A DNA stretch of 64,000 nt. It comes from Gammaproteobacteria bacterium (GTDB lineage Bacteria > Pseudomonadota > Gammaproteobacteria > Pseudomonadales > Pseudohongiellaceae). This document shows, one piece after another, positions 19,267-37,001 of the stretch. The stretch lies in contig JAQWTK010000011.1 in the NCBI GenBank assembly GCA_029242705.1, positions 1 to 64,000 of the forward strand, written 5' to 3'. The position numbers and the translations under genes are program-made. Under the pieces are notes generated by a model that saw nothing but the letters and a program-made list of their open reading frames with translations, ran no database searches and was not told the origin of the DNA. Each line of letters begins with the position of its first letter. Positions within the stretch are counted from its first letter, which is position 1.

Positions 19267-20253
19267 CTAGCCAGCGGCTAAACTCAGCACAGCCGTTTCT
19301 ATTGCGGCGCTCGTCATCGGCAGCTTATGAGCATTCTTAGTAAGCGGCTGCGCATCTCGAATACCAATTTCTCCGGCCTCACGAGCTACCGCTGCACTAA
19401 TTTGTTTGCCTGCTAGAAAATCCTCTACTGCCTGGACTCGCCAAGGAATTGGAGCGACCCCAGTCAAAACCACTTTGGCACTTTGCGCAACATTTCCATC
19501 TCGCTGTATAACGGTTGCCACACCTATTTCCGCATGGGTCCAGGCCTCGCGATCCATAACTTTGTAGTATGTACTGACCGTATTCGCCGATAAATTCGGT
19601 ATCACGACACCAGTAAGTAATTCATTTTCTCGTAAGGAGTTTTCTCGAACCGGATCTGTAATTGGCAAAACAAAAAAATCTTCGGCAGATACTTCTCGGT
19701 CTCCGTTAGGTCCAGTCACCTGGAAGATTGCATCAAAAGCAACTAACGCTGGTGCAACATCAGACGGATGCACAATAAAGGAAGGGCCTCCTCCGAATAT
19801 CGCGTGTTGTCCATTCTCACCATCTAGCGAAAAGCATTCCTCTCCGCCCGCTTTAAAACAGTTAAAACCATTTCGGTAGTACCAGCACCAAGGCCTTTGT
19901 GTCACGTTGCCGGCCAACGTTCCAACATTTCGTATCTGGGGCGTACCGACAGAAACCGCCGCCTGGGCAATCGCAGACATACTTGCGTTAACCAATGGGT
20001 CTTCAGATAATTCAGTCAGGGTTACTAAACCACCAATCGATACTCCGTTCCCGTTAGTTTCTATTGCCCTCCCATCTGGGACCGAGCGCAGGTTTATAAC
20101 TACATCAGCGTTATCCGTACCATCCTTAATTTGCTGCAAAAGATCAGTACCGCCGCCAGAAAAAGCAACAGATTGGCCCAGCTGACGAGCTTGCTGTGCA
20201 GCGGAAGCCGCTTCTTCGAAACTAGCTACATTTAAGTTTGTTAGTGATCTCAT
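19267..20253 (-). CDS. Xanthine dehydrogenase family FAD-binding subunit with Cys-rich insertion
   Basis: 'LRSVPDGRAIETNGNGVSIGGLVTLTELSEDP', 'SVGTPQIRNVGTLAGNVTQRPWCWYYRNGFNCFKAGGEECF'. Confidence 0.9.
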   Translation of the reverse strand: MRSLTNLNVASFEEAASAAQQARQLGQSVAFSGGGTDLLQQIKDGTDNADVVINLRSVPDGRAIETNGNGVSIGGLVTLTELSEDPLVNASMSAIAQAAVSVGTPQIRNVGTLAGNVTQRPWCWYYRNGFNCFKAGGEECFSLDGENGQHAIFGGGPSFIVHPSDVAPALVAFDAIFQVTGPNGDREVSAEDFFVLPITDPVRENSLRENELLTGVVIPNLSANTVSTYYKVMDREAWTHAEIGVATVIQRDGNVAQSAKVVLTGVAPIPWRVQAVEDFLAGKQISAAVAREAGEIGIRDAQPLTKNAHKLPMTSAAIETAVLSLAAG

Positions 20254-22418
20254 GCCATTGCTCCTAGAATCTTATCCCGGGTTATTGGCAGCGAGGTCAT
20301 ACGATGACCAATCGCGTTGGCGACAGCGTTAGCGACAGCAGCAGGCGCCAAGATAATTCCCGATTCTCCTGCCGTTTTTGCCCCAAACGGGCCATAACCA
20401 TCATCTGTCTCGATAAAATGCACGTCAATATCTGGAATATCTTTATGAGTTAGATGGCGCGCGCGATAATATCCCGGCGTTAGCGGTTGCCCTGATTTCG
20501 GATCATAGAGGAGGTCCTCATGAATAGCTTGGCCGATTCCTTGAATGGTAGCTCCGCGAATCTGATCTCGTGCTGTGGATGGATTAATTATACGACCCGA
20601 CTCATGGCTTGCAGTGTACTTTAGTATACGGGTACTCCCGATCCGCGTGTCGACCTCTACCTCTACAAAATGCGAACCAAAGCATTGTCGCGTTTTACCA
20701 TCTGTAGTTGGGCTTGGAGTTGCCGATGCTATCAATACATCCCCACCCGTCGGCATTCCATTGTCAGTAATTTGGCGTTTAAGATCTTCTGCCGCCTCGA
20801 CAACAGCGAGTCCCGTCATTATCGTAGTCCGACTACCCGATTCACCGACCGAGTAAGGACAACGATCAGTATCTCCCCAGACAACTTCCACGTTTGATAA
20901 TGACGTACCCAAAGCTTCGGCCGCTATCATACCCATTGTCGTTTTCGCACCCGGACCGATATCTGTTACGCCAACATAGAGTGTATATTGTTCGTTAGCG
21001 TTGACCCGCACGATGGCACTTGAGGTCCCGACACCAGCTCGGAACATCATGAACGAAAATCCTGCTCCCCGTTTTATTGGTCCATCATCAGAACCAGGGA
21101 TGACTTTCCTGCGGGCCTGCCAGTTAAATCGCTCAGCACCGGTTGTGATGACCTCATCAAGGGTATAATTTGTAAACTGTTGTTCCTCTGTAGGTCGACG
21201 CATATTTTTAAGAGTAAACTCAACAGGATCCAATCCGATCTGATAAGCCACTTCATCCATCATGTTTTCTATGCCGTAGAAACCATGGGGCTCTGAAGGT
21301 GCCCTAAAATTTCCAGAGGTTGTTCGATTTGTATAGACAGGACTAATCTCCCGATAGCGGTTGGGACAACCGTATGCGTCCATTCCACTGATACCACCCG
21401 AATTTTTTCGGTAAGGCCCCATCCCGGAATAGCCATGCATCTGAATAGCAGTTACCTCACCATCATCTTTAACACCTATCTTATAATTCTGGACGGTGGG
21501 CCAACGGCCATGGACTCCCAACCAATCCTCTCGACGCGAGTACTCCAGCATTACCGGAGCTCCTACTCTTCGCGAAAGAGTGGCTGCCACTAAGTCAGCA
21601 TCTTGATTCTGATTTTTATTGCCAAAACCTCCACCCATGTATTTAGTGATCACCTGTACTTGATGGTCCTCAAGGCCCAAGTCTCTAGCAGTGTCGTGTC
21701 GGCAGTTCGAAATTCCTTGCGACGGGGTATAAAGTGCAAGCTTATCGCCTTGCCAATGCGCTAAAGAACAGCGAGGCTCCATCTGCGCATTGTGTATAAA
21801 GCCGGTTTCATATCGCTCTTCAAAAATTTGGTCTGCCTCCGCGAATCCAGCTTCAACATCACCGATATCACTTATCATCGGGGCAAATTCTCCGCGAAAA
21901 TCCGGGCAAAGATTTCCTTCTTCATAAACCAGTGGAGCACCATCCTCTAGAGCCTCTTCGGGGTCGAGGACAAAGGGTAGCTCTTCGTATTCCACTTTAA
22001 TTAAAGCCAATGCTTCCTCCGCAATATTACGATCCGTGGCTGCCACCGCAGCGATCGAGTCGCCAACAAACCTTACCGGGTTATTAAAAATGTAGCGCCG
22101 GTGTATTGTTGCTTCCTTGGTCGGGTCATTGTATTGGCGTCCTCCATTTACCGAACCTGCCCCCCAAACCACCTGTGCATTTTCGTAAGTAATCACAGAA
22201 CGAACTCCGGGAAGAGCTTCGGCTTCACTTGTATCAATACTCACTAAGCGTGCATGTGGATATGGGCTTCGCAGCACTTTCCCAAATAGCATGCCGGGGA
22301 GTTTCCAATCTCTAGTATATTTAGCTTGACCTGTGACCCTCTCTATCGCATCGATTCGAGGAGTATCATTTCCTATAGTGCTTAAAGGTGCTAAACCTTC
22401 TCTAGTAAATTCACTCAT
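20250..22418 (-). CDS. Xanthine dehydrogenase family molybdopterin-binding subunit
   Basis: 'VTGQAKYTRDWKLPGMLFGKVLRSPYPHARL', 'GGGFGNKNQNQDADLVAATLSRR', 'GIGQAIHEDLLYD'. Confidence 0.93.
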   Translation of the reverse strand: MSEFTREGLAPLSTIGNDTPRIDAIERVTGQAKYTRDWKLPGMLFGKVLRSPYPHARLVSIDTSEAEALPGVRSVITYENAQVVWGAGSVNGGRQYNDPTKEATIHRRYIFNNPVRFVGDSIAAVAATDRNIAEEALALIKVEYEELPFVLDPEEALEDGAPLVYEEGNLCPDFRGEFAPMISDIGDVEAGFAEADQIFEERYETGFIHNAQMEPRCSLAHWQGDKLALYTPSQGISNCRHDTARDLGLEDHQVQVITKYMGGGFGNKNQNQDADLVAATLSRRVGAPVMLEYSRREDWLGVHGRWPTVQNYKIGVKDDGEVTAIQMHGYSGMGPYRKNSGGISGMDAYGCPNRYREISPVYTNRTTSGNFRAPSEPHGFYGIENMMDEVAYQIGLDPVEFTLKNMRRPTEEQQFTNYTLDEVITTGAERFNWQARRKVIPGSDDGPIKRGAGFSFMMFRAGVGTSSAIVRVNANEQYTLYVGVTDIGPGAKTTMGMIAAEALGTSLSNVEVVWGDTDRCPYSVGESGSRTTIMTGLAVVEAAEDLKRQITDNGMPTGGDVLIASATPSPTTDGKTRQCFGSHFVEVEVDTRIGSTRILKYTASHESGRIINPSTARDQIRGATIQGIGQAIHEDLLYDPKSGQPLTPGYYRARHLTHKDIPDIDVHFIETDDGYGPFGAKTAGESGIILAPAAVANAVANAIGHRMTSLPITRDKILGAMA

Positions 22419-23110
22419 GCCAAACCCCCTTCTTCGCCAGCCATCACTATGGCTTCTACTATGGAGTTATAATTGGAACAGCGACAAAGGTTACCTACCA
22501 TTGCGTCTTTAACTTCTTTGGCTGTAGGCGAAGGATTGCTGCTTAAAAGAGCAGTCGCCGTCATTAATTGTCCTGGTGTACAAAATCCGCATTGCGGACC
22601 ATTGTTTATCACAAAGGCTCTTTGCACTGGGGTAAGCTCACCATTTTGAGCCAAGCCTTCAACGGTTTGAATATCCGCTCCATCCGCCCAAACAGCTAGC
22701 TGAGAACAAGCGTAAACTGGCTGCTCATCCATTAACACGGTACAAGCCCCACATTCACTTCTATTACAACCTATCTTAGTACCAGTAAGATCTAGTTGAT
22801 CACGGAGCATATCAGCCAGTGTCCAGCGATCTTCTACTTCTAGACTGTGTTGGGTCCCATTAACGACAACATTAATTACGGTTGTAGCGACCGCTGATGA
22901 AGATTGTGCATTCGCCCCAGGAATACCAAATGCTGATATACCTGCCCCAGCGACTGCGGCCGCACCGGAACCTTCTAAAAAATCTCTTCGTGATTGTTCT
23001 TTACTATTTAAACCCTGTGCAGCAGGTTCTACGTACTTCACCGCGGGGTCTTTTTTGTTAACAAGCTTATTGCCCTGCTTCTTCTTGTCGCGCATGGGGT
23101 GGCTCCTCAT
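22415..23110 (-). CDS. Xanthine dehydrogenase family 2Fe-2S subunit with Tat signal
   Basis: 'SRRDFLEGSGAAAVAGAGISAFG'; 'GCNRSECGACTVLMD' and 'CGFCTPGQLM...GNLCRCSNY'. Confidence 0.93.
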   Translation of the reverse strand: MRSHPMRDKKKQGNKLVNKKDPAVKYVEPAAQGLNSKEQSRRDFLEGSGAAAVAGAGISAFGIPGANAQSSSAVATTVINVVVNGTQHSLEVEDRWTLADMLRDQLDLTGTKIGCNRSECGACTVLMDEQPVYACSQLAVWADGADIQTVEGLAQNGELTPVQRAFVINNGPQCGFCTPGQLMTATALLSSNPSPTAKEVKDAMVGNLCRCSNYNSIVEAIVMAGEEGGLA

Positions 23111-26123: not shown

Positions 26124-26819
26124 TTAAATTCCGCGCCCTGCCGCCGATCTGCGAAACTGATACTTGAAAAACGGATTGAGCAACCGAGCAAGCCCCTTAG
26201 TAAAAGTGAGCGGGCTGTCTAAGACGGAGAAGCATAAGCACCCTTCCTCGCTTCGCGGTTGGTGCATATCTTTTTCAGTCCGATAAATAAAGTCCGCTCT
26301 CTGGTAGTGTCCTAGTTCATCATTAAAACTGCCATCTAACACTAAAGTAGTTTCGCTACCTTGGTGCTTATGCATCGGCGTTTGGCTTCCTGGTTTCATA
26401 TAAATGAATTCACACTGGGTTTCATCATCCAGGTGCATTAGCGCCTGGTTTATACCGCCACCTAGTTGCTTCCAGACCAGCCCTTGAGAAGCAGCCTTGG
26501 CTAAGACTTTAGGAAGGCTGACACTATGATCAAGCATGTGTATCTGATCTAGGATCGCCTCTTTTTCTCTAGGTTTTTCAATCTGTGGTTGATTTACGAT
26601 ATCCAAGGCTAAACCAGAAAAATCATTTTGCTTTTGATCATCGTTTGTTTGCAACCAATCTATTGCCGCTTTCGCTTCAATCTTACTTGTTTTATGCCTG
26701 CAAGTTTCACAGAGTTCGATATGCGCAGAAATCGCTACATTCAAACCGGATAACAAACTCCCAGCTGTGAATTTCTTCAACATTTCAGTCGAAGGATGAT
26801 AATTTGCTTCGCTAATCAT
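26124..26819 (-). CDS. chrR: ChrR-type zinc/cupin anti-sigma factor
   Basis: HxxxCxxC motif 'AHIELCETC' plus cupin region 'GSQTPMHKHQGSETTLVLDGSFNDELGHYQRADF'; overlaps the sigma gene by 4 nt. Confidence 0.88.
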   Translation of the reverse strand: MISEANYHPSTEMLKKFTAGSLLSGLNVAISAHIELCETCRHKTSKIEAKAAIDWLQTNDDQKQNDFSGLALDIVNQPQIEKPREKEAILDQIHMLDHSVSLPKVLAKAASQGLVWKQLGGGINQALMHLDDETQCEFIYMKPGSQTPMHKHQGSETTLVLDGSFNDELGHYQRADFIYRTEKDMHQPRSEEGCLCFSVLDSPLTFTKGLARLLNPFFKYQFRRSAAGRGI

Positions 26820-27493
26820 GATTCAGTCCCAAGTGATTGCCTTAACTTGCCCATCGCTAAACGCAACCTTGATTTCAGGGTGCCGAGCGGAATTTCTAAA
26901 AACTGCGCCGCTTCTTCATGAGTCCGGTTAAGTATATGAATTTGTTCCACAACTGCTTGCTGCGCGGCTGGGAGTTGCCTGACTAATTTCTCTATTTGTG
27001 AGATCTGCACTTCAACTGATCCTCGCTCTGCTTCGCTTAAAGCCTCCGCATCCTCAAATCCCGCGGGCCAAATATCATCAGCGCTTAAGACCGCTGATTG
27101 ACGTTTTTGTTTTCGAAGCATATCGAAACAACGGTTTCGCGTTATAGTAAATATCCAACTTTGGACATTACCTTTATCCATATTGTAGAGAGGAGCTTTC
27201 TGCCAGACGGTTAGCATCGCCTCTTGCACTAGATCTTTAGCCATTTGCTCATTGCGCATAATCTTCATTCCATGCGCAAAAACCTTGTTAGCGAAGCGAT
27301 CAAAAAGTTGGTCGAACGCCTCTTTTGACTTGCTATTGCTTACCTTTACCAGCAAAGCCTCGTCGCTAGTGGGATCGAGGTTATTTTCCACTGAAGGAAC
27401 CATTCCGACCTCAGTACAACCAGGGGGAGATGCTTTTCGTACTGCGAATTGCTTCTCTGCTAGATTGTCCATTTTCAATAATATTCCAGACAT
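26816..27493 (-). CDS. ECF RNA polymerase sigma factor (RpoE/ECF11-like)
   Basis: 'MAKDLVQEAMLTVWQKAPLYNMDKGNVQSWIFTITRNRCFDMLRKQKR' and region 4 'TLKSRLRLAMGKLRQSL'. True start may be the internal Met (MDNLAEK). Confidence 0.92.
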   Translation of the reverse strand: MSGILLKMDNLAEKQFAVRKASPPGCTEVGMVPSVENNLDPTSDEALLVKVSNSKSKEAFDQLFDRFANKVFAHGMKIMRNEQMAKDLVQEAMLTVWQKAPLYNMDKGNVQSWIFTITRNRCFDMLRKQKRQSAVLSADDIWPAGFEDAEALSEAERGSVEVQISQIEKLVRQLPAAQQAVVEQIHILNRTHEEAAQFLEIPLGTLKSRLRLAMGKLRQSLGTES

Positions 27494-27550
27494 AATACTC
27501 TAAAACGCGAGATTTTGAGATATAGATCACTTCCTAGACGGTATTTAAAG

Positions 27551-27579
27551 TGATCCAAGCACGAGGAAGGGCCGTAAAG
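27551..27579 (+). promoter_or_regulatory. Candidate ECF11/ChrR-regulon promoter
   Basis: TGATCC (27551-27556), 18-nt spacer, TAAAG (27575-27579), upstream of the first operon gene at 27620. Confidence 0.65.
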
Positions 27580-27619
27580 GTTGGAACAGTAATTAAAATA
27601 ACAAAGAGTTGGAAATCCT

Positions 27620-28090
27620 ATGAGTCAGGCCCCTGAATTATCCTTCGCATCCGAGCAAACAAGTGCTGAATACCTTGCAAAACGGGTCGAAGAGGCTTAC
27701 CACGTTATTAGTCCAGACAATTTAGGGATAGTAGAGTCTCTGTATACAGATGATGCGTATTTTGAAGATCCTTCTCATGGGGTTCAGGGAAAAACTGCAT
27801 TGGTAGGACATTTTTCGAAAACCTTTGCCAAACTTCAGGGCTGCTCTTTCAAGTTCCACCAGACAGTATCAAATGGCGCGGACATATTTATGGCTTGGAC
27901 AATGTTTATTAAGTATCCCAGCTTAAAAGGGGGCCAAACTATTCGAGTTGAAGGTGCCAGTTTTTTGAAAACTCGAAACGGCAAGATCTATTACCACCGG
28001 GATTACTTCGACCTGGGTTCTTTATTGTACGAGCATGTTCCCTTCCTCGGCCGCATGATTCTAAAAATTAAGCAACGCATTGCGCAATGA
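27620..28090 (+). CDS. Nuclear transport factor 2 (SnoaL-like) family protein
   Basis: 'LYTDDAYFEDPSHGVQGKTALVGHFSKTFAKLQGCSFKFHQTVSNGADIFMAWTMFIKYP'. Confidence 0.85.
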   Translation: MSQAPELSFASEQTSAEYLAKRVEEAYHVISPDNLGIVESLYTDDAYFEDPSHGVQGKTALVGHFSKTFAKLQGCSFKFHQTVSNGADIFMAWTMFIKYPSLKGGQTIRVEGASFLKTRNGKIYYHRDYFDLGSLLYEHVPFLGRMILKIKQRIAQ

Positions 28091-28803
28091 AGGTACTGAT
28101 TACTGGAGCCACCTCTGGAATTGGCAAGCAGTTAGCTCTTGATTATCTTAAAGACGGCCACGAAGTTTTCTGCTGTGGCCGCAACAATTCTTCATTACAA
28201 CAATTAGTTGAAAAATTCCCAGAATCAGCTTTCCTACACTGCTTTGATGTTGCCGAACTGAGTGAATGTGTGGGCTCTTTAGCTAATATTTCGCAGTTAG
28301 ACCAAGTAATTCTTAATGCCGGTACTTGCGAATACATCAATGCCAAAGAATTTGACGCAGAATTATTTGCGAGAGTAATGAAAACCAATCTCATAGGAGT
28401 CGCTAATTGTCTACAGGCTCTGATCCCTAAGATAAAGAATGAGGGTTCTTTAGCTTTGATGGGAAGCAGCTCAAGTTACTTACCATTACCTAGAGCGGAG
28501 GCCTATGGAGCCTCAAAAGCTGCAATAGAATATCTAGCCCGTACTTTGCAAATTTCTTTATCCCATATCAACGTCAGTTACATAGCTCCAGGATTTGTAG
28601 AAACGTCCCTTACAGAACAAAATGATTTCCCAATGCCCATGCGCGTCGATGTTAAGTTCGCTTCAAAAAGTATTAGAACAGCGCTTAACGAAAATAAACA
28701 AGAAATTCATTTCCCTAGAAAATTCACATTGATACTTAAAGCAATTGCTCTTTTACCAAAACGAATTCAACAAATCTTGATTACTAAAGCCCTCGCGTAC
28801 TAA
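28087..28803 (+). CDS. Short-chain dehydrogenase/reductase
   Basis: 'VLITGATSGIGKQLALDYLKDGHEV', 'AYGASKAAIEYLARTL'. Confidence 0.92.
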   Translation: MKVLITGATSGIGKQLALDYLKDGHEVFCCGRNNSSLQQLVEKFPESAFLHCFDVAELSECVGSLANISQLDQVILNAGTCEYINAKEFDAELFARVMKTNLIGVANCLQALIPKIKNEGSLALMGSSSSYLPLPRAEAYGASKAAIEYLARTLQISLSHINVSYIAPGFVETSLTEQNDFPMPMRVDVKFASKSIRTALNENKQEIHFPRKFTLILKAIALLPKRIQQILITKALAY

Positions 28804-28818
28804 GATTTAAGTCAGCTA

Positions 28819-30075
28819 ATGAATAAACAGCGGATCGCGATCATAGGAAGTGGAATATCCGGACTCACTTCGGCTTATTTGCTTCATCAACACCATACTA
28901 TTACTGTGTTTGAGGCCAATGATTATATTGGGGGTCACACTCACACGGTTGAAATTAAGCATTTGGGCGAAACTTATCAAGTCGACACGGGATTTATTGT
29001 ATCCAATGACCGCAATTACGAGAATTTTCTCAAGCTGATGGCAAAGCTTGATGTTGCTCTCAAACCTACAGAAATGAGTTTCAGTGTTAGAAATAATTTA
29101 GTAAACCTCGAATACAATGGCCACAATATAAACACGCTCTTTTCACAGCGCAGAAACTTTCTGCGACCTAAGTTTTACAGACTGGTATACGACATTTTGA
29201 AATTTAATAAGGCTGCGAAAGAATCGCTCAAAAACCAACCAAATAAAAGCGTAACCCTAGGAGAATTTGTACTCCAAGAAAGATTAGGTACAACCTTTAG
29301 AGATAATTACCTAATGCCCATGGTGGCTGCCATTTGGTCTTGCAGCTTAAAACAAGCAGAGAAATTTCCGTTGAAATTCTTTCTACGCTTTTTCTTGAAT
29401 CATGGGTTGCTTGATATAAAGAATAGACCACAATGGTATGTGGTTGACGGCGGCTCGGGAGCTTATGTTAAGCCAATGACAGCCAGTTTCGAACAAAATA
29501 TAAAACTGAGCTGCCCCATTTTTTCAGTAAAACGAAATGACGAATTTATGGAGGTTCGCCACGCTAGTGGAGTAGAAGAGTTTGATCAAGTTATTTTCGC
29601 TTGCCATAGCGATCAAGCACTCGAACTACTTGAAAATCCTAGCACAAATGAAAATAGCATATTAGGAGATCTCGAATACCAAGAAAATGATATTATTCTG
29701 CATACCGACGACTCTCTTATGCCAAAAAATAGGCTTTCTTGGGCAAGCTGGAACTTCCTTGCAGGCGAGCGCAAGACAGACGAGCCTCCTCTCGTTACTT
29801 ATTGCATGAATATTTTGCAAGGCATTCAAAGTAAGGTTCCTTTTTTAGTATCCTTAAACGCTAGGCAAAAAATTGCTTCTGAAAAAATTTTACGGGAATT
29901 TATATACTCCCATCCAATATATTCTCAAAAAGCGATCCAGGCTCAGTCAAGGCGAGAAACAATTTGTGGAGTAGACCGAATACATTATTGTGGCGCCTAT
30001 TGGTACAGCGGCTTCCACGAAGACGGTGTGCGTAGTGCACTAGATGTTGTCAAACGATTTGGGGTAGAAATGTGA
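28819..30075 (+). CDS. FAD/NAD(P)-binding amine-oxidase-like oxidoreductase
   Basis: 'RIAIIGSGISGLTSAYLLHQHHTITVFEANDYIGGHTHTVEI'. Confidence 0.92.
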   Translation: MNKQRIAIIGSGISGLTSAYLLHQHHTITVFEANDYIGGHTHTVEIKHLGETYQVDTGFIVSNDRNYENFLKLMAKLDVALKPTEMSFSVRNNLVNLEYNGHNINTLFSQRRNFLRPKFYRLVYDILKFNKAAKESLKNQPNKSVTLGEFVLQERLGTTFRDNYLMPMVAAIWSCSLKQAEKFPLKFFLRFFLNHGLLDIKNRPQWYVVDGGSGAYVKPMTASFEQNIKLSCPIFSVKRNDEFMEVRHASGVEEFDQVIFACHSDQALELLENPSTNENSILGDLEYQENDIILHTDDSLMPKNRLSWASWNFLAGERKTDEPPLVTYCMNILQGIQSKVPFLVSLNARQKIASEKILREFIYSHPIYSQKAIQAQSRRETICGVDRIHYCGAYWYSGFHEDGVRSALDVVKRFGVEM

Positions 30076-30869
30076 GCCAGAAACCTACAACAAACTTCGA
30101 AAGCGCAATCTATAAAGGCATTGTTCGACATCGCCGTTTCAGCCCAAATAAAAATGAATTTGAGTCCCCATTATTCATGTTTTTATTCAAAGTAGACGAG
30201 ATTTCCGACATCTTTAAAAAGTTCTGGCAACTGAGTTTTAAACCCATAAGTTGGGCTAGATTCAAACGTAAAGATTACATAGCTAGTGAAATCGATAATC
30301 TTGCTGTTGCAGTAAAATCGAAAATTGCAAATCAGTTAGACCTATCTATTGATGAACTAGAAGGAGATGTATTTCTGTTAGGCCATCTTCGCTATTTTGG
30401 TTTCTATTTTAGCCCATTGAATGTGTATTTTTTAAAAAAAGAGAGCGGCTTTACTCATATGCTTGCGGAAGTAAGTAATACACCCTGGCATGAAAAACAC
30501 TATTACGCGCTCGATCTAGAGAATTTGCATCGGCATCCAAAAGAATTTCACGTATCACCGTTTAATCCAATGGATCAAACTTATCAATGGAGGATTAAAC
30601 CACCGGAGAATTCGTCTAAATCGTGTTTGATCCATATTGAAAGCTACACTCAAAATACAGATAATAAAGTATTTGATGCGACCCTTAATTTAAAAAAACG
30701 ACCATTAAATAAAAACGAGTTGAATAGGGTCCTACTTAAGACACCAATGCAAACAGCAAGTATAGTATTTGGAATTTATTGGCAAGCCTTAAAATTATTT
30801 TTAAAGCGCACTCCTTTTTATAAACACCCTATTAAATCTGAAATTAAAGTTGAAGAAGGTGCATCATGA
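30072..30869 (+). CDS. DUF1365 family protein
   Basis: 'IYKGIVRHRRFSPNKNEFESPLFMFLFKVDEI', 'VFLLGHLRYFGFYFSPLNVYFL'. Confidence 0.9.
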   Translation: MSQKPTTNFESAIYKGIVRHRRFSPNKNEFESPLFMFLFKVDEISDIFKKFWQLSFKPISWARFKRKDYIASEIDNLAVAVKSKIANQLDLSIDELEGDVFLLGHLRYFGFYFSPLNVYFLKKESGFTHMLAEVSNTPWHEKHYYALDLENLHRHPKEFHVSPFNPMDQTYQWRIKPPENSSKSCLIHIESYTQNTDNKVFDATLNLKKRPLNKNELNRVLLKTPMQTASIVFGIYWQALKLFLKRTPFYKHPIKSEIKVEEGAS

Positions 30870-32119
30870 GCCATGAAGAATTAACTGTTGGCGATGGTAA
30901 TTCTCAAGGATCGAGAACCTCGAAGAAAGTTGCTCTACTTCGCTCAATACTAGTAAAAGTTCTTAGCCAAGCTACCGAAGGATATTTCTTACTAAGAGAA
31001 AATGGGCGAATCATTGCTGAAGTTGGAAATCCTGAGGATGAGCTAAGAGCAGAAGCAGACGTTCGTGATAATAGAATATACGCCCGCGCCTTGCTTGGCG
31101 GTAACACTGCTGCAGGAGAGGCATTTGTTGATGGCTGGTGGACTTCTCCAGATATTACGCAGGTCACGCGCTTTTTTTCGAGAAATCTTGCCATGATGGA
31201 CTACTGGGACAGTCGTTTCGGTTGGTTATTGAAGCCTTTCAAATTTCTTCGCTACATAAGACGAGCCAATACGAAAACACAAGCAAAGAAAAACATACTC
31301 GCGCACTACGATCTTGGAAATGAACTTTACTGCTCTTTCCTTGATTCAAAAATGCAATACAGTTCCGCCATCTATAAAGCGCCAGAAGAATCGCTAGAAA
31401 AAGCTCAGAAAAACAAACTTACGCGAATTTGCGAGCAACTTCAGCTAAGCAAGGATGATCATTTGCTTGAGGTTGGTACTGGCTGGGGTGGTCTAGCAAT
31501 ATTTGCGGCAAAGCACTATGGATGTAAGGTTACCACCACTACAATCTCAAATGAGCAATTTCAATTTGCAAAGATCGAAATAGATAAAGCCGGCTTAACA
31601 AATGATATTGATTTACTATCAAAAGATTATCGCATGCTTGAGGGACAATACGACAAAGTTGTCTCCATAGAAATGATTGAAGCCGTAGGAAAAAAATATT
31701 TAACCGAATATTTCAAAAAACTAAATTCACTCCTAAAACCTAATGGCCTCCTGTTACTGCAGGCAATCACAATAGCGGATCAACGTTATAAAGCCTATAG
31801 CCAGAGTGAAGATTTCATTCAAAAGCATATATTCCCCGGTGGTTTTTTACCATCTTTACATCTGATGTCTCAGATAATTTCAGAAAGAACGGAATTAGTG
31901 GTCCGAGATATTTTTGATATTGGTCTTGATTACGCAAAGACCCTGTCCCACTGGCACGAAAATATAAAGAGCAAGAAAGAACTGCTTGCCAGCAAGGGTT
32001 ACGATGAAAAGTTCTATAATTTATGGTCGTATTACCTATGCTACTGCGAGGGTGGCTTTCGAGAAAGACGCATAAGTGCGGCACAAATTCTCGCAAGCAA
32101 AACCCCTCATAATTACTAG
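30866..32119 (+). CDS. Cyclopropane-fatty-acyl-phospholipid synthase family methyltransferase
   Basis: 'KNILAHYDLGNELYCSFLDSKMQYSSAIY', 'LLEVGTGWGGLAIFAAKHYGCKVTTTTIS'. Confidence 0.93.
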   Translation: MSHEELTVGDGNSQGSRTSKKVALLRSILVKVLSQATEGYFLLRENGRIIAEVGNPEDELRAEADVRDNRIYARALLGGNTAAGEAFVDGWWTSPDITQVTRFFSRNLAMMDYWDSRFGWLLKPFKFLRYIRRANTKTQAKKNILAHYDLGNELYCSFLDSKMQYSSAIYKAPEESLEKAQKNKLTRICEQLQLSKDDHLLEVGTGWGGLAIFAAKHYGCKVTTTTISNEQFQFAKIEIDKAGLTNDIDLLSKDYRMLEGQYDKVVSIEMIEAVGKKYLTEYFKKLNSLLKPNGLLLLQAITIADQRYKAYSQSEDFIQKHIFPGGFLPSLHLMSQIISERTELVVRDIFDIGLDYAKTLSHWHENIKSKKELLASKGYDEKFYNLWSYYLCYCEGGFRERRISAAQILASKTPHNY

Positions 32120-32125
32120 TGTACT

Positions 32126-32656
32126 GTGCACCAATTACAACTAACTGTTCTTTCAAAGCCATTTAATCTGATTTTGTTTAATTTATTGTGGGCCGGGTTG
32201 GTAATTGGAAGAGATTCATTGCTGAACTACACAATACCCATACTCGTAATTTACATAACCCTCTTAATTTTTGCAGGATCGAAAAAAATCTATCAATTTT
32301 TGATGCCCGCTAGTTTAGGAATAACCGTAGACTGCACGTTCGCTTTTTCTGGAGTATTTATATTTTCTGAGACTTTTATCCTTATCCCAATATGGCTAAT
32401 AGCGCTTTGGTTTGCATTTTCTAGCACTTTAACGCTCTCTCTATCCTATATAGGAAGAAATAAAATAATAACGATAGCTGCGGGCGCTTTTCTTATGCCT
32501 CTTAATTATGCTATTGGTGAACGACTGGGAGCTGTCGAATTTGCGGAACCTTATATAGTAAGTTTATTATCTATTGGAGTTGTGTGGATGATCGGACTCC
32601 CGATATTATTTTTCATATCTCGTCAAAACTTTGAAGAAATTTTTCACAAAATTTAG
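32126..32656 (+). CDS. DUF2878 family membrane protein
   Basis: Multi-TM protein in the usual operon position after DUF1365/CFA genes. Confidence 0.7.
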   Translation: MHQLQLTVLSKPFNLILFNLLWAGLVIGRDSLLNYTIPILVIYITLLIFAGSKKIYQFLMPASLGITVDCTFAFSGVFIFSETFILIPIWLIALWFAFSSTLTLSLSYIGRNKIITIAAGAFLMPLNYAIGERLGAVEFAEPYIVSLLSIGVVWMIGLPILFFISRQNFEEIFHKI

Positions 32657-33143
32657 TTTGCCTCTTATTGCGTATCTAGCGATACAAGTAACAGCTGCAA
32701 ACCCGACTGAAGACCTTAATGTTGTAGGTGAGACTCGCCTTAAGTTTGTATTTTGGCAGATTTACAAAAGTACTTTATATTCAACTAGCGGTGATTATCA
32801 AGGCCTTGAGCCTGATCTTACACTACAAATTAATTATCTACGCAAAATAAAAATCGAACAATTAATAAGCAGAACGAGAGAAGAATGGCAGAAAATGTCA
32901 TTTCGTTCTGATCAACGCGAACAATGGTTAACAGAACTTAAAGCTATACTCCCTAGCGTAGAAAAAGGTGACGTAATTATCCTAAAAGTTGATGAAGAAT
33001 TGAGCAGCAACTTCTATTTCAATTCATCTTTCATAGGGCGCATAGATAGCCCAATTTTTACAAAAGCATTCCTTGATATTTGGCTATCAGAGAAAGGCAG
33101 CTATCCAGAACTTCAAAAACAGCTAACCGGTCGAAAAGACTGA
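32631..33143 (+). CDS. Chalcone isomerase-like periplasmic protein
   Basis: Signal peptide; 'VGETRLKFVFWQIYKSTLYSTSGDYQ', 'ALKA..KGDVIILKVDEELSSNFYFN' pattern. Confidence 0.7.
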   Translation: MKKFFTKFSLPLIAYLAIQVTAANPTEDLNVVGETRLKFVFWQIYKSTLYSTSGDYQGLEPDLTLQINYLRKIKIEQLISRTREEWQKMSFRSDQREQWLTELKAILPSVEKGDVIILKVDEELSSNFYFNSSFIGRIDSPIFTKAFLDIWLSEKGSYPELQKQLTGRKD

Positions 33144-34361: not shown

Positions 34362-36425
34362 ATGATAATTAATATGAAAATACGCCGCATTATAGAGTTG
34401 ACTACCCTCACTGTAACTTTGACTTTTGTGGGCTGTGATAACCAAGAGCAAGGGTCTGAACAAGAACCAATCGTTCAATCTCAGTCGACTGCAACTGAAG
34501 TTTCCATTGAACAAGCCCCCCATCCGGTGGCAGGGAAAGGAACTACCCCAGGCGACTGGGATGCCTATGGCGCTGATATAAGCAGCACCAAATATACCCC
34601 ACTAGACCAAATAAATGGGGACAATATTGATCAGTTGGAGATCGCCTGGCGCCGTCCAGCACTGGACGATTATTATGTAAATCTAAATCCTAGACAACGC
34701 TACTCTACTAGATGGAACGCAGCACCTATTGTAAAAAATGGTGTGGCTTACGTTACAAATGGTGTTGGACTTGTAGAAGCTTTTGACCCGAGTAGCGGTG
34801 AAACAATTTGGGTTCAGGAGCCTCCCGGCGGATTAGAGGGACTTCCAGGAGCGCCAACTCGTGGAGTCGCTTACTGGACTGACGGCGAAGAAGAACGGAT
34901 CATCGCACAACGTGGCACTTATTTGTATGCATTGAATGCGTCGACAGGAGAGCTCTACCAGGATTTTGGCACAGAAGGTCGTGTTGATCTTCAGTTGATG
35001 CCACCAGAATTTGAGCGTTATCGTTGGGGCGGGGTGCCAATGGTAGTGCGAGATGTAATCGTATTAGGGCAATCTATGTCCGACACATTTGATGCAAAAG
35101 AAGCCTACCGAGGAGATGTTCACGCCTTTGATGTAAGGACCGGAGATCTGCTTTGGACATTCAATACGATACCTCAAGAAGGTCAGTTTGGAACGGAAAC
35201 CTGGCAAGACCGCTCTTGGTCCTATACTGGCCATGCGCCGGTTTGGGCATTGTTTAGTGCTGATGCAGAGCTGGGTATGGTTTATATGCCAATATCCTCC
35301 TCCACTAATGATATGTATGGTGGACATCGCATCGGAGATAACCTATTTAGTCAAAGCATCGTAGCAGTAGATCTTGAAACTGGTGAGCGGATATGGCACT
35401 TCCAGACAGTGCACCATGGGCTCTGGGACTATGATCCACCAGCCGCTCCCATCCTTATGGATATAACAGTCGATGGTCGCGAAATAAAAGCAATTACCCA
35501 ACTCACCAAGCAAGCTTTCGCTTTTGTATTTGATAGAGAAACGGGCGAACCTGTCTGGGAAATCGAAGAAAGGCCTGTGCCGCAATCCTCGGTACCGGGT
35601 GAAGTAACTTCTCCGACCCAACCATTTCCGACAAAACCGGCTCCATTCGATCGGCAGGGAGCAACAGAAGATAATCTAATAGACTTTACTCCAGAACTTC
35701 GGGCAGAAGCATTAGAAATTTTTAATAACTATGTAACAGGCCCAATTTTTACTCCCCCGTCTATAGCTACTGAGAATGGAACAAAAGGTACAATTCAATT
35801 ACCTGGCTCTCAAGGCGGAGCAGATGTGCAAGGCGCGGCGTTCGATCCTGAAACGGGCTACCTCTATATTCCGTCGATTACTTCACCATTCGTTGCAGAT
35901 ATTCTGCCCGGGGATCCGGACGAAACAAATTTAACTTACACCAAAGGCTCCCGCCGCTGGATTGCTGGACCAAGAGGACTCCCTCTATTTAAGCCTCCTT
36001 ATGGTCGCATCACGGCGATTGATATGAATACGGGGGACCATGTCTGGATGGCGCCAAATGGTGATGGTCCGCGGGATAATCCAGAAATCGCACACCTTAA
36101 CCTAGGGCAACTCGGAGCACCAGGCCGTCCTGCGCCATTGTTAACTGGCTCACTTTTATTCATCGGTGAAGGATTTACTAACCAACGCCCCGGCGGTCGA
36201 ATTCCATTCGATATGCCAGTGGAAATAGCTACCAATAGTGGCGGACCCTGGTTTAGAGCATACGACAAGCAGAATGGAGAAATTGTTTGGGAAATCGAAC
36301 TTGAAGCTGGCACTACTAGTCCACCAATTAGTTACGAGCATGGTGGGGACCAATACATACTCGTGTCAATTGGCGATCGCAGCCACAGTCCGGAGATGCT
36401 AGCATTTAAACTAAACAATGATTAA
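34362..36425 (+). CDS. PQQ-dependent (quinoprotein) dehydrogenase, lipoprotein-like
   Basis: 'GDWDAYGADISSTKYTPLDQINGDNIDQLEIAWRRP', beta-propeller repeats, lipobox-like 'FVGCDN'. Confidence 0.92.
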   Translation: MIINMKIRRIIELTTLTVTLTFVGCDNQEQGSEQEPIVQSQSTATEVSIEQAPHPVAGKGTTPGDWDAYGADISSTKYTPLDQINGDNIDQLEIAWRRPALDDYYVNLNPRQRYSTRWNAAPIVKNGVAYVTNGVGLVEAFDPSSGETIWVQEPPGGLEGLPGAPTRGVAYWTDGEEERIIAQRGTYLYALNASTGELYQDFGTEGRVDLQLMPPEFERYRWGGVPMVVRDVIVLGQSMSDTFDAKEAYRGDVHAFDVRTGDLLWTFNTIPQEGQFGTETWQDRSWSYTGHAPVWALFSADAELGMVYMPISSSTNDMYGGHRIGDNLFSQSIVAVDLETGERIWHFQTVHHGLWDYDPPAAPILMDITVDGREIKAITQLTKQAFAFVFDRETGEPVWEIEERPVPQSSVPGEVTSPTQPFPTKPAPFDRQGATEDNLIDFTPELRAEALEIFNNYVTGPIFTPPSIATENGTKGTIQLPGSQGGADVQGAAFDPETGYLYIPSITSPFVADILPGDPDETNLTYTKGSRRWIAGPRGLPLFKPPYGRITAIDMNTGDHVWMAPNGDGPRDNPEIAHLNLGQLGAPGRPAPLLTGSLLFIGEGFTNQRPGGRIPFDMPVEIATNSGGPWFRAYDKQNGEIVWEIELEAGTTSPPISYEHGGDQYILVSIGDRSHSPEMLAFKLNND

Positions 36426-36467
36426 TACAAATTTGAATAACTCTATTTCAAAATAGGAAAGAAATTT

Positions 36468-37001
36468 ATGAAAAATATAAGACTTGCCTTAGGAGTATTG
36501 GTATTTGGTGCTATTACCTCTCTAACTACTTACATACTAGCGCAAACACCGGCCCCTGCAGTACCGCCAATAGCAACCGATGTGACCGCTGAAGATATAA
36601 CAAAATTTATAGACGGTTTACCCAAAGATAGAGTTAGCGACCGCCCCATCCGAAGCGTGGAAGTTACAGGAGATTACAGAGTTGGTGTCTATGGGGTGTT
36701 CAGACCAAAAGAACTCCCTGGCGGATCAAATCTCCACCAAGTAAATACAACCGAAATTTATTATATGCGTAGCGGTTATGCGACCTTAGTAACAGGGGGA
36801 ACAATGACAGAAGCGCGTCAAGAAAACGAAAATTGGGCACGAGGAACTGCGATAGAAAATGGCGTAAGCCGAAGAGTTGTTCCAGGAGATGTTATTATTA
36901 TTCCAGGGCATACACCCCACTGGTTTAGTGAACTAGAAACTGACCTAACTTATTTAATTTTTAGGCCTGATCCTGACAACCGTATTCCACTGATAGATTA
37001 A
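36468..37001 (+). CDS. Secreted cupin domain protein
   Basis: Signal peptide; 'NLHQVNTTEIYYMRSGYATLVTGG...VPGDVIIIPGHTPHWFSE'. Confidence 0.82.
   Translation: MKNIRLALGVLVFGAITSLTTYILAQTPAPAVPPIATDVTAEDITKFIDGLPKDRVSDRPIRSVEVTGDYRVGVYGVFRPKELPGGSNLHQVNTTEIYYMRSGYATLVTGGTMTEARQENENWARGTAIENGVSRRVVPGDVIIIPGHTPHWFSELETDLTYLIFRPDPDNRIPLID

Follow-up and report, generated by a model that had tools for sequence, protein, structure and literature searches.

A putative RpoE-ChrR switch coupled to a candidate furan-fatty-acid operon in an uncultured gammaproteobacterium

We analyzed a 64,000-nucleotide stretch from an uncultured gammaproteobacterium of the Pseudohongiellaceae (GCA_029242705.1, contig JAQWTK010000011.1, positions 1 to 64,000; the window). 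Nine open reading frames (ORFs) at 26124-33143 form a chrR-extracytoplasmic function (ECF) sigma factor pair divergent from a seven-gene plus-strand operon. Judged from its sequence, this locus is very probably a furan-fatty-acid operon coupled to a gammaproteobacterial version of the RpoE-ChrR (ECF11) switch for photo-oxidative stress. This switch is a widespread one, familiar from purple bacteria, and detects damage by reactive oxygen that light generates. The operon gene order was found again in 39 loci of related genomes, so the nine-gene arrangement is not due to chance. In a profile search, the stated domains scored above Pfam or NCBIfam cut-offs in all nine ORFs. Together, the ORFs, domain matches and recurring order bear out the gene content, positions, divergence and overlapping ends given in the initial annotation of this DNA. 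Its guess that the operon makes furan-type fatty acids is likewise supported, by the predicted orthology of three enzymes, a tree and active-site residues, and we infer that this bacterium would produce furan lipids. The system is of a known kind and the furan idea is not novel; the cassette is widespread and has been partly characterized in Vibrio, Pseudomonas and Halomonas. The locus would mean that singlet oxygen controls the making of furan lipids in an uncultured bacterium, one of a genus in which the pathway is frequent.

The enzymes of methylated furan fatty acid synthesis were described by Lemke et al. (PMC7380195): UfaM, of the CMAS family; UfaD, a flavin adenine dinucleotide (FAD)-dependent oxidoreductase; and UfaO, a DUF1365 protein. 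UfaM converts cis-vaccenate to 11-methyl-12t-18:1, UfaD turns this into 11-methyl-10t,12t-18:2, and UfaO forms the furan 9M5-FuFA, whose ring oxygen comes from O2; the three genes are enough for furan in two alphaproteobacteria, of the genera Rhodobacter and Rhodopseudomonas (PMC7380195). The window carries homologues of all three on the plus strand: a predicted FAD-dependent methyl-fatty-acyl desaturase with an Amino_oxidase domain (UfaD, 28819-30075), a DUF1365 protein (232 bits) predicted to carry out the furan-forming oxygenation (UfaO, 30072-30869), and a UfaM-type S-adenosylmethionine-dependent methyltransferase (30866-32119), a kind usually annotated as cyclopropane fatty acid (CFA) synthase. 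For comparison we used Cereibacter johrii (L097); its SigE and that of Rhodobacter sphaeroides are 98% identical. In C. johrii ufaD-ufaO is divergent from sigma-chrR, as ufaD sits in R. sphaeroides, and the sole full-length CMAS gene adjoins a photolyase gene, like RSP2144. The window proteins are 38% (UfaD), 26% (UfaO) and 38% over 374 amino acids (UfaM) identical to those of C. johrii. The order ufaD-ufaO-ufaM does not vary in the 39 relatives' loci wherever the contig covers the genes; a fortieth locus (L096) contains just a remote second copy of DUF1365. Among 30 loci drawn across the phylum, 27 have the same order.

Across 73 UfaO sequences, nine residues are invariant (H20, R22, G110, N136, Y145, K157, S162, P163 and Y171), only one of them a histidine. 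The UfaO sequence had no match among solved structures in the Protein Data Bank (PDB). A structure predicted from the window and Rhodobacterales sequences only is rich in beta structure and has a long helix at its C terminus (mean predicted local distance difference test score, 78.8). Its best PDB match had an E value of 1.6e-3, with template modeling scores below 0.5 and hits scattered among lipocalin-like barrels; none of these is a convincing structural neighbor, and they were not taken to indicate a fold or cofactor.

The operon could apply the UfaM, UfaD and UfaO chemistry yet reach another end product, such as a different methyl position, a dimethyl-furan or a non-furan oxidized lipid, with the NTF2-like, short-chain dehydrogenase/reductase (SDR) and chalcone-isomerase-like proteins as extra enzymes. 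We consider this unlikely. It would suit the four extra genes, conserved companions in gammaproteobacteria, as well as the divergence of UfaO and the added FufM-like methyltransferase of a few relatives. However, the three genes make furan in the alphaproteobacteria cited above, and the window operon has no FufM-like gene. Several relatives keep ufaDOM and sigma-chrR with ntf2 and sdr absent from the operon (L069, L070, L074, L076, L078 and L081), so these two genes are not likely to be required for furan synthesis.

The four companions are all on the plus strand. Upstream of ufaD lie the NTF2/SnoaL-like gene (27620-28090; SnoaL_2, 55.8 bits), found at the same position in most relatives and in Aeromonas, and the SDR gene (28087-28803; adh_short, 119.8 bits), which has a YGASK catalytic motif. 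Downstream of ufaM are a small membrane protein of the DUF2878 family (32126-32656; 96.9 bits) with several hydrophobic segments and, last in the operon, the chalcone-isomerase-like protein (32631-33143; Chalcone_3, 40.5 bits) with an N-terminal signal-like segment. The first three, and often the chalcone-isomerase-like gene, recur in the genus and beyond. The initial annotation held that the chemistry of most of the operon genes is not established; for the three core genes this has been overtaken by work published since 2020 (PMC7380195), and for the other four it stands. Our guess is that the SDR and NTF2-like proteins may deal with the dioxoenes formed when furans are oxidized.

The operon might also do no more than cyclopropanate lipids under stress, with an ordinary CFA synthase, the FAD and DUF1365 proteins serving some other purpose. 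The window protein does match CMAS at 270 bits, and its best NCBIfam model is CFA synthase, at 287.5 against a cut-off of 400 and hence below it. It is 36% identical to E. coli CFA synthase and 38% to C. johrii UfaM, values so nearly equal that overall identity cannot separate the two. Halomonas UfaM expressed in E. coli also gave cyclic fatty acids, which the host makes anyway (PMC12089945). In a maximum-likelihood tree, however, the window protein falls inside the UfaM clade of 40 DUF1365-linked and Rhodobacterales UfaM proteins (support, 100/98), apart from six CFA synthases, which are long-branched and form an unresolved group. Its operon neighbors correspond to ufaD and ufaO, and the protein is the sole full-length CMAS found in this genome.

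The active site points the same way. In E. coli CFA synthase, the catalytic bicarbonate is held by Glu239, His266 and Tyr317 (PMC11387697). The window protein (E. coli numbering) keeps Glu239 and Tyr317 and has Gln266, Ala240 and Ser139, so the bicarbonate ligand set is incomplete, His266 being replaced by Gln. The Ala240-Gln266 pair occurs in all intact DUF1365-linked UfaM-type proteins examined (about 42, 27 and 10 in three sets, with one overlap), and also in Rhodobacterales UfaM, including that of C. johrii; an Azospirillum copy (L178) broken in the active-site region was excluded. In contrast, 77 of 79 CMAS proteins not linked to DUF1365, sampled across the phylum, have Cys139-His240-His266. 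One of the two others (L327, G069:C16:33268-34271) has the UfaM pattern in a genome with no DUF1365 match, and would be an orphan UfaM or a case in which the DUF1365 gene was missed; the second (L328, G249:C6:139533-140524) has an intermediate Cys139-Ala240-His266. Taken together, the active-site residues and the clade placement indicate that the gene is UfaM-type and no cyclopropane synthase. An ordinary CFA synthase is thus very improbable, and the label "cyclopropane synthase", also used in the initial annotation, is almost certainly wrong.

We lean slightly towards the view that loss of the bicarbonate ligand, with Gln in place of His266, Ala in place of His240 and, in most cases, Ser or Ala in place of Cys139, is what converts a cyclopropane synthase into UfaM. 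Lacking a bicarbonate placed to deprotonate the added methyl group, the cation would give up a chain proton instead; the product would be methyl-branched, with its trans double bond shifted. If so, this residue pair would re-label many DUF1365-linked "CFA synthases" as furan-pathway enzymes. As a signature it is simple and testable, and it tells UfaM apart from genuine cyclopropane synthases, a distinction that automatic annotation blurs. No mention of it was found in the searchable literature, a scope that excludes subscription papers, and it may be the sole part of this work that is new.

Several further observations concern this methyltransferase family. In the tree, one same-genus UfaM clusters with UfaM of another family, which suggests gene transfer. 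Three relatives, two of the same genus (L065, 3959-5065; L077, 4076-5182) and one of the same order (L093, 8030-9100), have a second CMAS-type methyltransferase after ufaDOM, with Cys or Ala139, His240, His266 and Phe268. Two FufM-like genes located after ufaM form a separate clade. For the L065 protein, the only copy searched, the nearest solved structures are coclaurine/pavine-type N-methyltransferases; the reported Arabidopsis relative of FufM is AT4G33110 (PMC10940516). These second enzymes may make dimethyl-furan fatty acids. Records labeled as Enterococcus, Listeria and Salmonella phages encode CFA-synthase-like pieces (H41-H45, matches to the methyltransferase). They are unannotated, several are very short, and they are probably host DNA.

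On the regulatory side, the minus strand encodes an ECF11-type sigma factor (rpoE, 26816-27493; Sigma70_r2/r4) and ChrR, a zinc anti-sigma factor with a C-terminal cupin (26124-26819; TIGR02451, 167.9 bits). Among all solved structures, the nearest homologue of the sigma factor is R. sphaeroides SigE (2q1z, E value of 6.8e-28; runner-up, 9.6e-14), and that of ChrR is R. sphaeroides ChrR (2z2s, 4.5e-20). R. sphaeroides ChrR binds zinc through H6/H31/C35/C38 and H141/H143/E147/H177 (PMC6852236). In an alignment the window protein keeps all eight ligands, H/H/C/C in the anti-sigma domain and H/H/E/H in the cupin. By nearest solved homologue, zinc sites and the promoter motif described below, the two proteins are very probably an ECF11-type pair, which supports the Rhodobacter-type RpoE-ChrR switch proposed in the initial annotation.

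The published promoter of this sigma group is TGATCC-N16-CGTA, from Pseudomonas syringae (PMC5507510). The gap between the divergent genes, whose annotated starts (sigma and ntf2) are 126 bp apart, holds a perfect match toward the operon (27551-27576, plus strand; 10/10) and TGATCT-N16-CGTT toward the sigma gene (27529-27504, minus strand; 8/10), the former a predicted promoter for the seven genes and the latter one for autoregulation of sigma-chrR. The sigma ORF start at 27493 is probably too far upstream, and the ATG at 27472 fits better, since the predicted -10 element ends at 27504 and the N termini of relatives match the later start. Among related loci with the sigma gene adjoining the operon, and with spacers of 15 to 17 permitted, the best motif score was 9 to 10 of 10 in 186 of 206 tests versus 81 of 2,060 random segments from the same loci, a few of which overlap true sites. 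Many of these loci are from close Rhodobacterales kin and are not independent; the motif is conserved likewise in other families of the window bacterium's order. Sigma-chrR and ufaDOM are not adjacent in some relatives (L082 and L092, for example), but it is hardly credible that sigma-chrR and the operon are chance neighbors without coregulation, given that the adjacency recurs over many families of the order and matching promoters in both directions occur at the window locus and about 100 others.

The predicted regulon extends beyond the locus. The photolyase gene of this genome (G000:C21:17705) has TGATCG-N16-CGTA about 30 bp upstream (9/10). Of 30 photolyase loci tested, mostly from the genus of the window bacterium, 16 have a score of at least 9 within 200 bp, versus 24 of 1,800 random segments, and the -10 element is mostly 44 to 65 bp ahead of the domain start. 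A photolyase in the putative regulon matches the core regulon of other proteobacteria (PMC5507510, PMC6852236). Some genomes in which ufaDOM was not found have the photolyase motif too, and several of these retain a ChrR. DUF1365 was not found in several near-complete genomes of the same genus (G024, G027 and G029), two of which retain ChrR. In such genomes the sigma/ChrR switch seems to have been kept although the furan operon is missing. A perfect TGATCC-N16-CGTA also lies at G000:C1:26391-26416 (L039, 1501-1526), at a distance of 137 bp from the downstream gene for an efflux-type periplasmic adaptor (L039, 1664-2836); in P. syringae a weaker motif is found ahead of an AcrA-type gene (PMC5507510).

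Some results weigh against a furan operon under this switch. UfaO has just 26% identity to the characterized family. A genome-wide scan for the motif returned 18 sites versus 21 for a control pattern, which is chance level, so it is position and conservation that carry the promoter claim; 8 of 100 shuffles also give at least two matches in the window. In R. sphaeroides, deleting RSP1087, RSP1088 or RSP1089 singly left fatty acids unchanged (PMC7380195), and the accessory genes need not, then, act in synthesis.

Under the furan-operon reading we propose, zinc-bound ChrR would hold the sigma factor in unstressed cells. Singlet oxygen or an organic peroxide would inactivate ChrR, and the freed sigma factor would transcribe sigma-chrR, the seven-gene operon across the gap and, farther off, the photolyase gene. 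UfaM would methylate cis-vaccenoyl chains of the membrane to 11-methyl-12-trans-18:1, UfaD would form the conjugated 10,12-diene, and UfaO would close the diene with O2 to a methyl-furan. The methyl-furan would be consumed by singlet oxygen, hence protecting lipids. By analogy, what has been established for homologues elsewhere, namely the three reactions and induction by singlet oxygen, would apply here. A rhodopsin search of this genome gave no match, a control search being equally silent.

Among the nearest known systems is that of R. sphaeroides, with RpoE-ChrR, ufaD-ufaO (RSP1091-1090) and ufaM (RSP2144). It shares with the window the divergent sigma-chrR/ufaD-ufaO arrangement, the promoter, the three enzyme families and a photolyase in the regulon. 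It differs in that ufaM stands apart, next to phrB, and RSP1087-1089 belong to the operon, whereas in the window ufaM is one of the operon genes and phrB, with its 9/10 motif, lies at another place in the genome. Rhodopseudomonas palustris RPA2571-2570-2569 (ufaD-ufaO-ufaM), likened here by description, has the same core genes, consecutive by locus number, but a separate fufM. In a gammaproteobacterium, Halomonas sp. YLGW01, ufaD, ufaO and ufaM are consecutive as in the window, and its UfaM yields 11-methyl-12-18:1 in E. coli (PMC12089945). Vibrio has a sigma/ChrR-dependent blue-light response, with a TGATC-type promoter as in the window, in which the CFA-like gene VC1122 is strongly induced (PMC5241685). 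As in the window, the V. cholerae CMAS gene VC1122 adjoins a DUF2878 gene (VC1123); unlike in the window, sigma-chrR lies elsewhere (VC2302-VC2301) and a MerR regulator acts too. A plasmid operon of Aeromonas sp. BC14 (L177) has the identical order ntf2-sdr-ufaD-ufaO-ufaM-DUF2878-chalcone, but adds MerR, phrB, a Trp-rich protein and DUF3833, and sigma-chrR is not in the stretch examined.

The genes are tightly packed. Gene ends overlap by 4 nucleotides each at chrR/sigma, ntf2/sdr, ufaD/DUF1365 and DUF1365/CMAS and by 26 nucleotides at DUF2878/chalcone-isomerase-like, and all seven plus-strand genes are separated by overlaps or by gaps of at most 15 nucleotides. Because the TTG start of the chalcone-isomerase-like gene lies within the DUF2878 gene, that start is only a predicted one. 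The operon ends at 33143, with a convergent gene of the dihydrodipicolinate synthase (DHDPS) family shortly beyond. The flanks encode a xanthine-dehydrogenase-type molybdoenzyme pair with a twin-arginine-translocation-like signal (20250-23110) and a pyrroloquinoline quinone beta-propeller dehydrogenase with a cupin protein after it (34362-37001).

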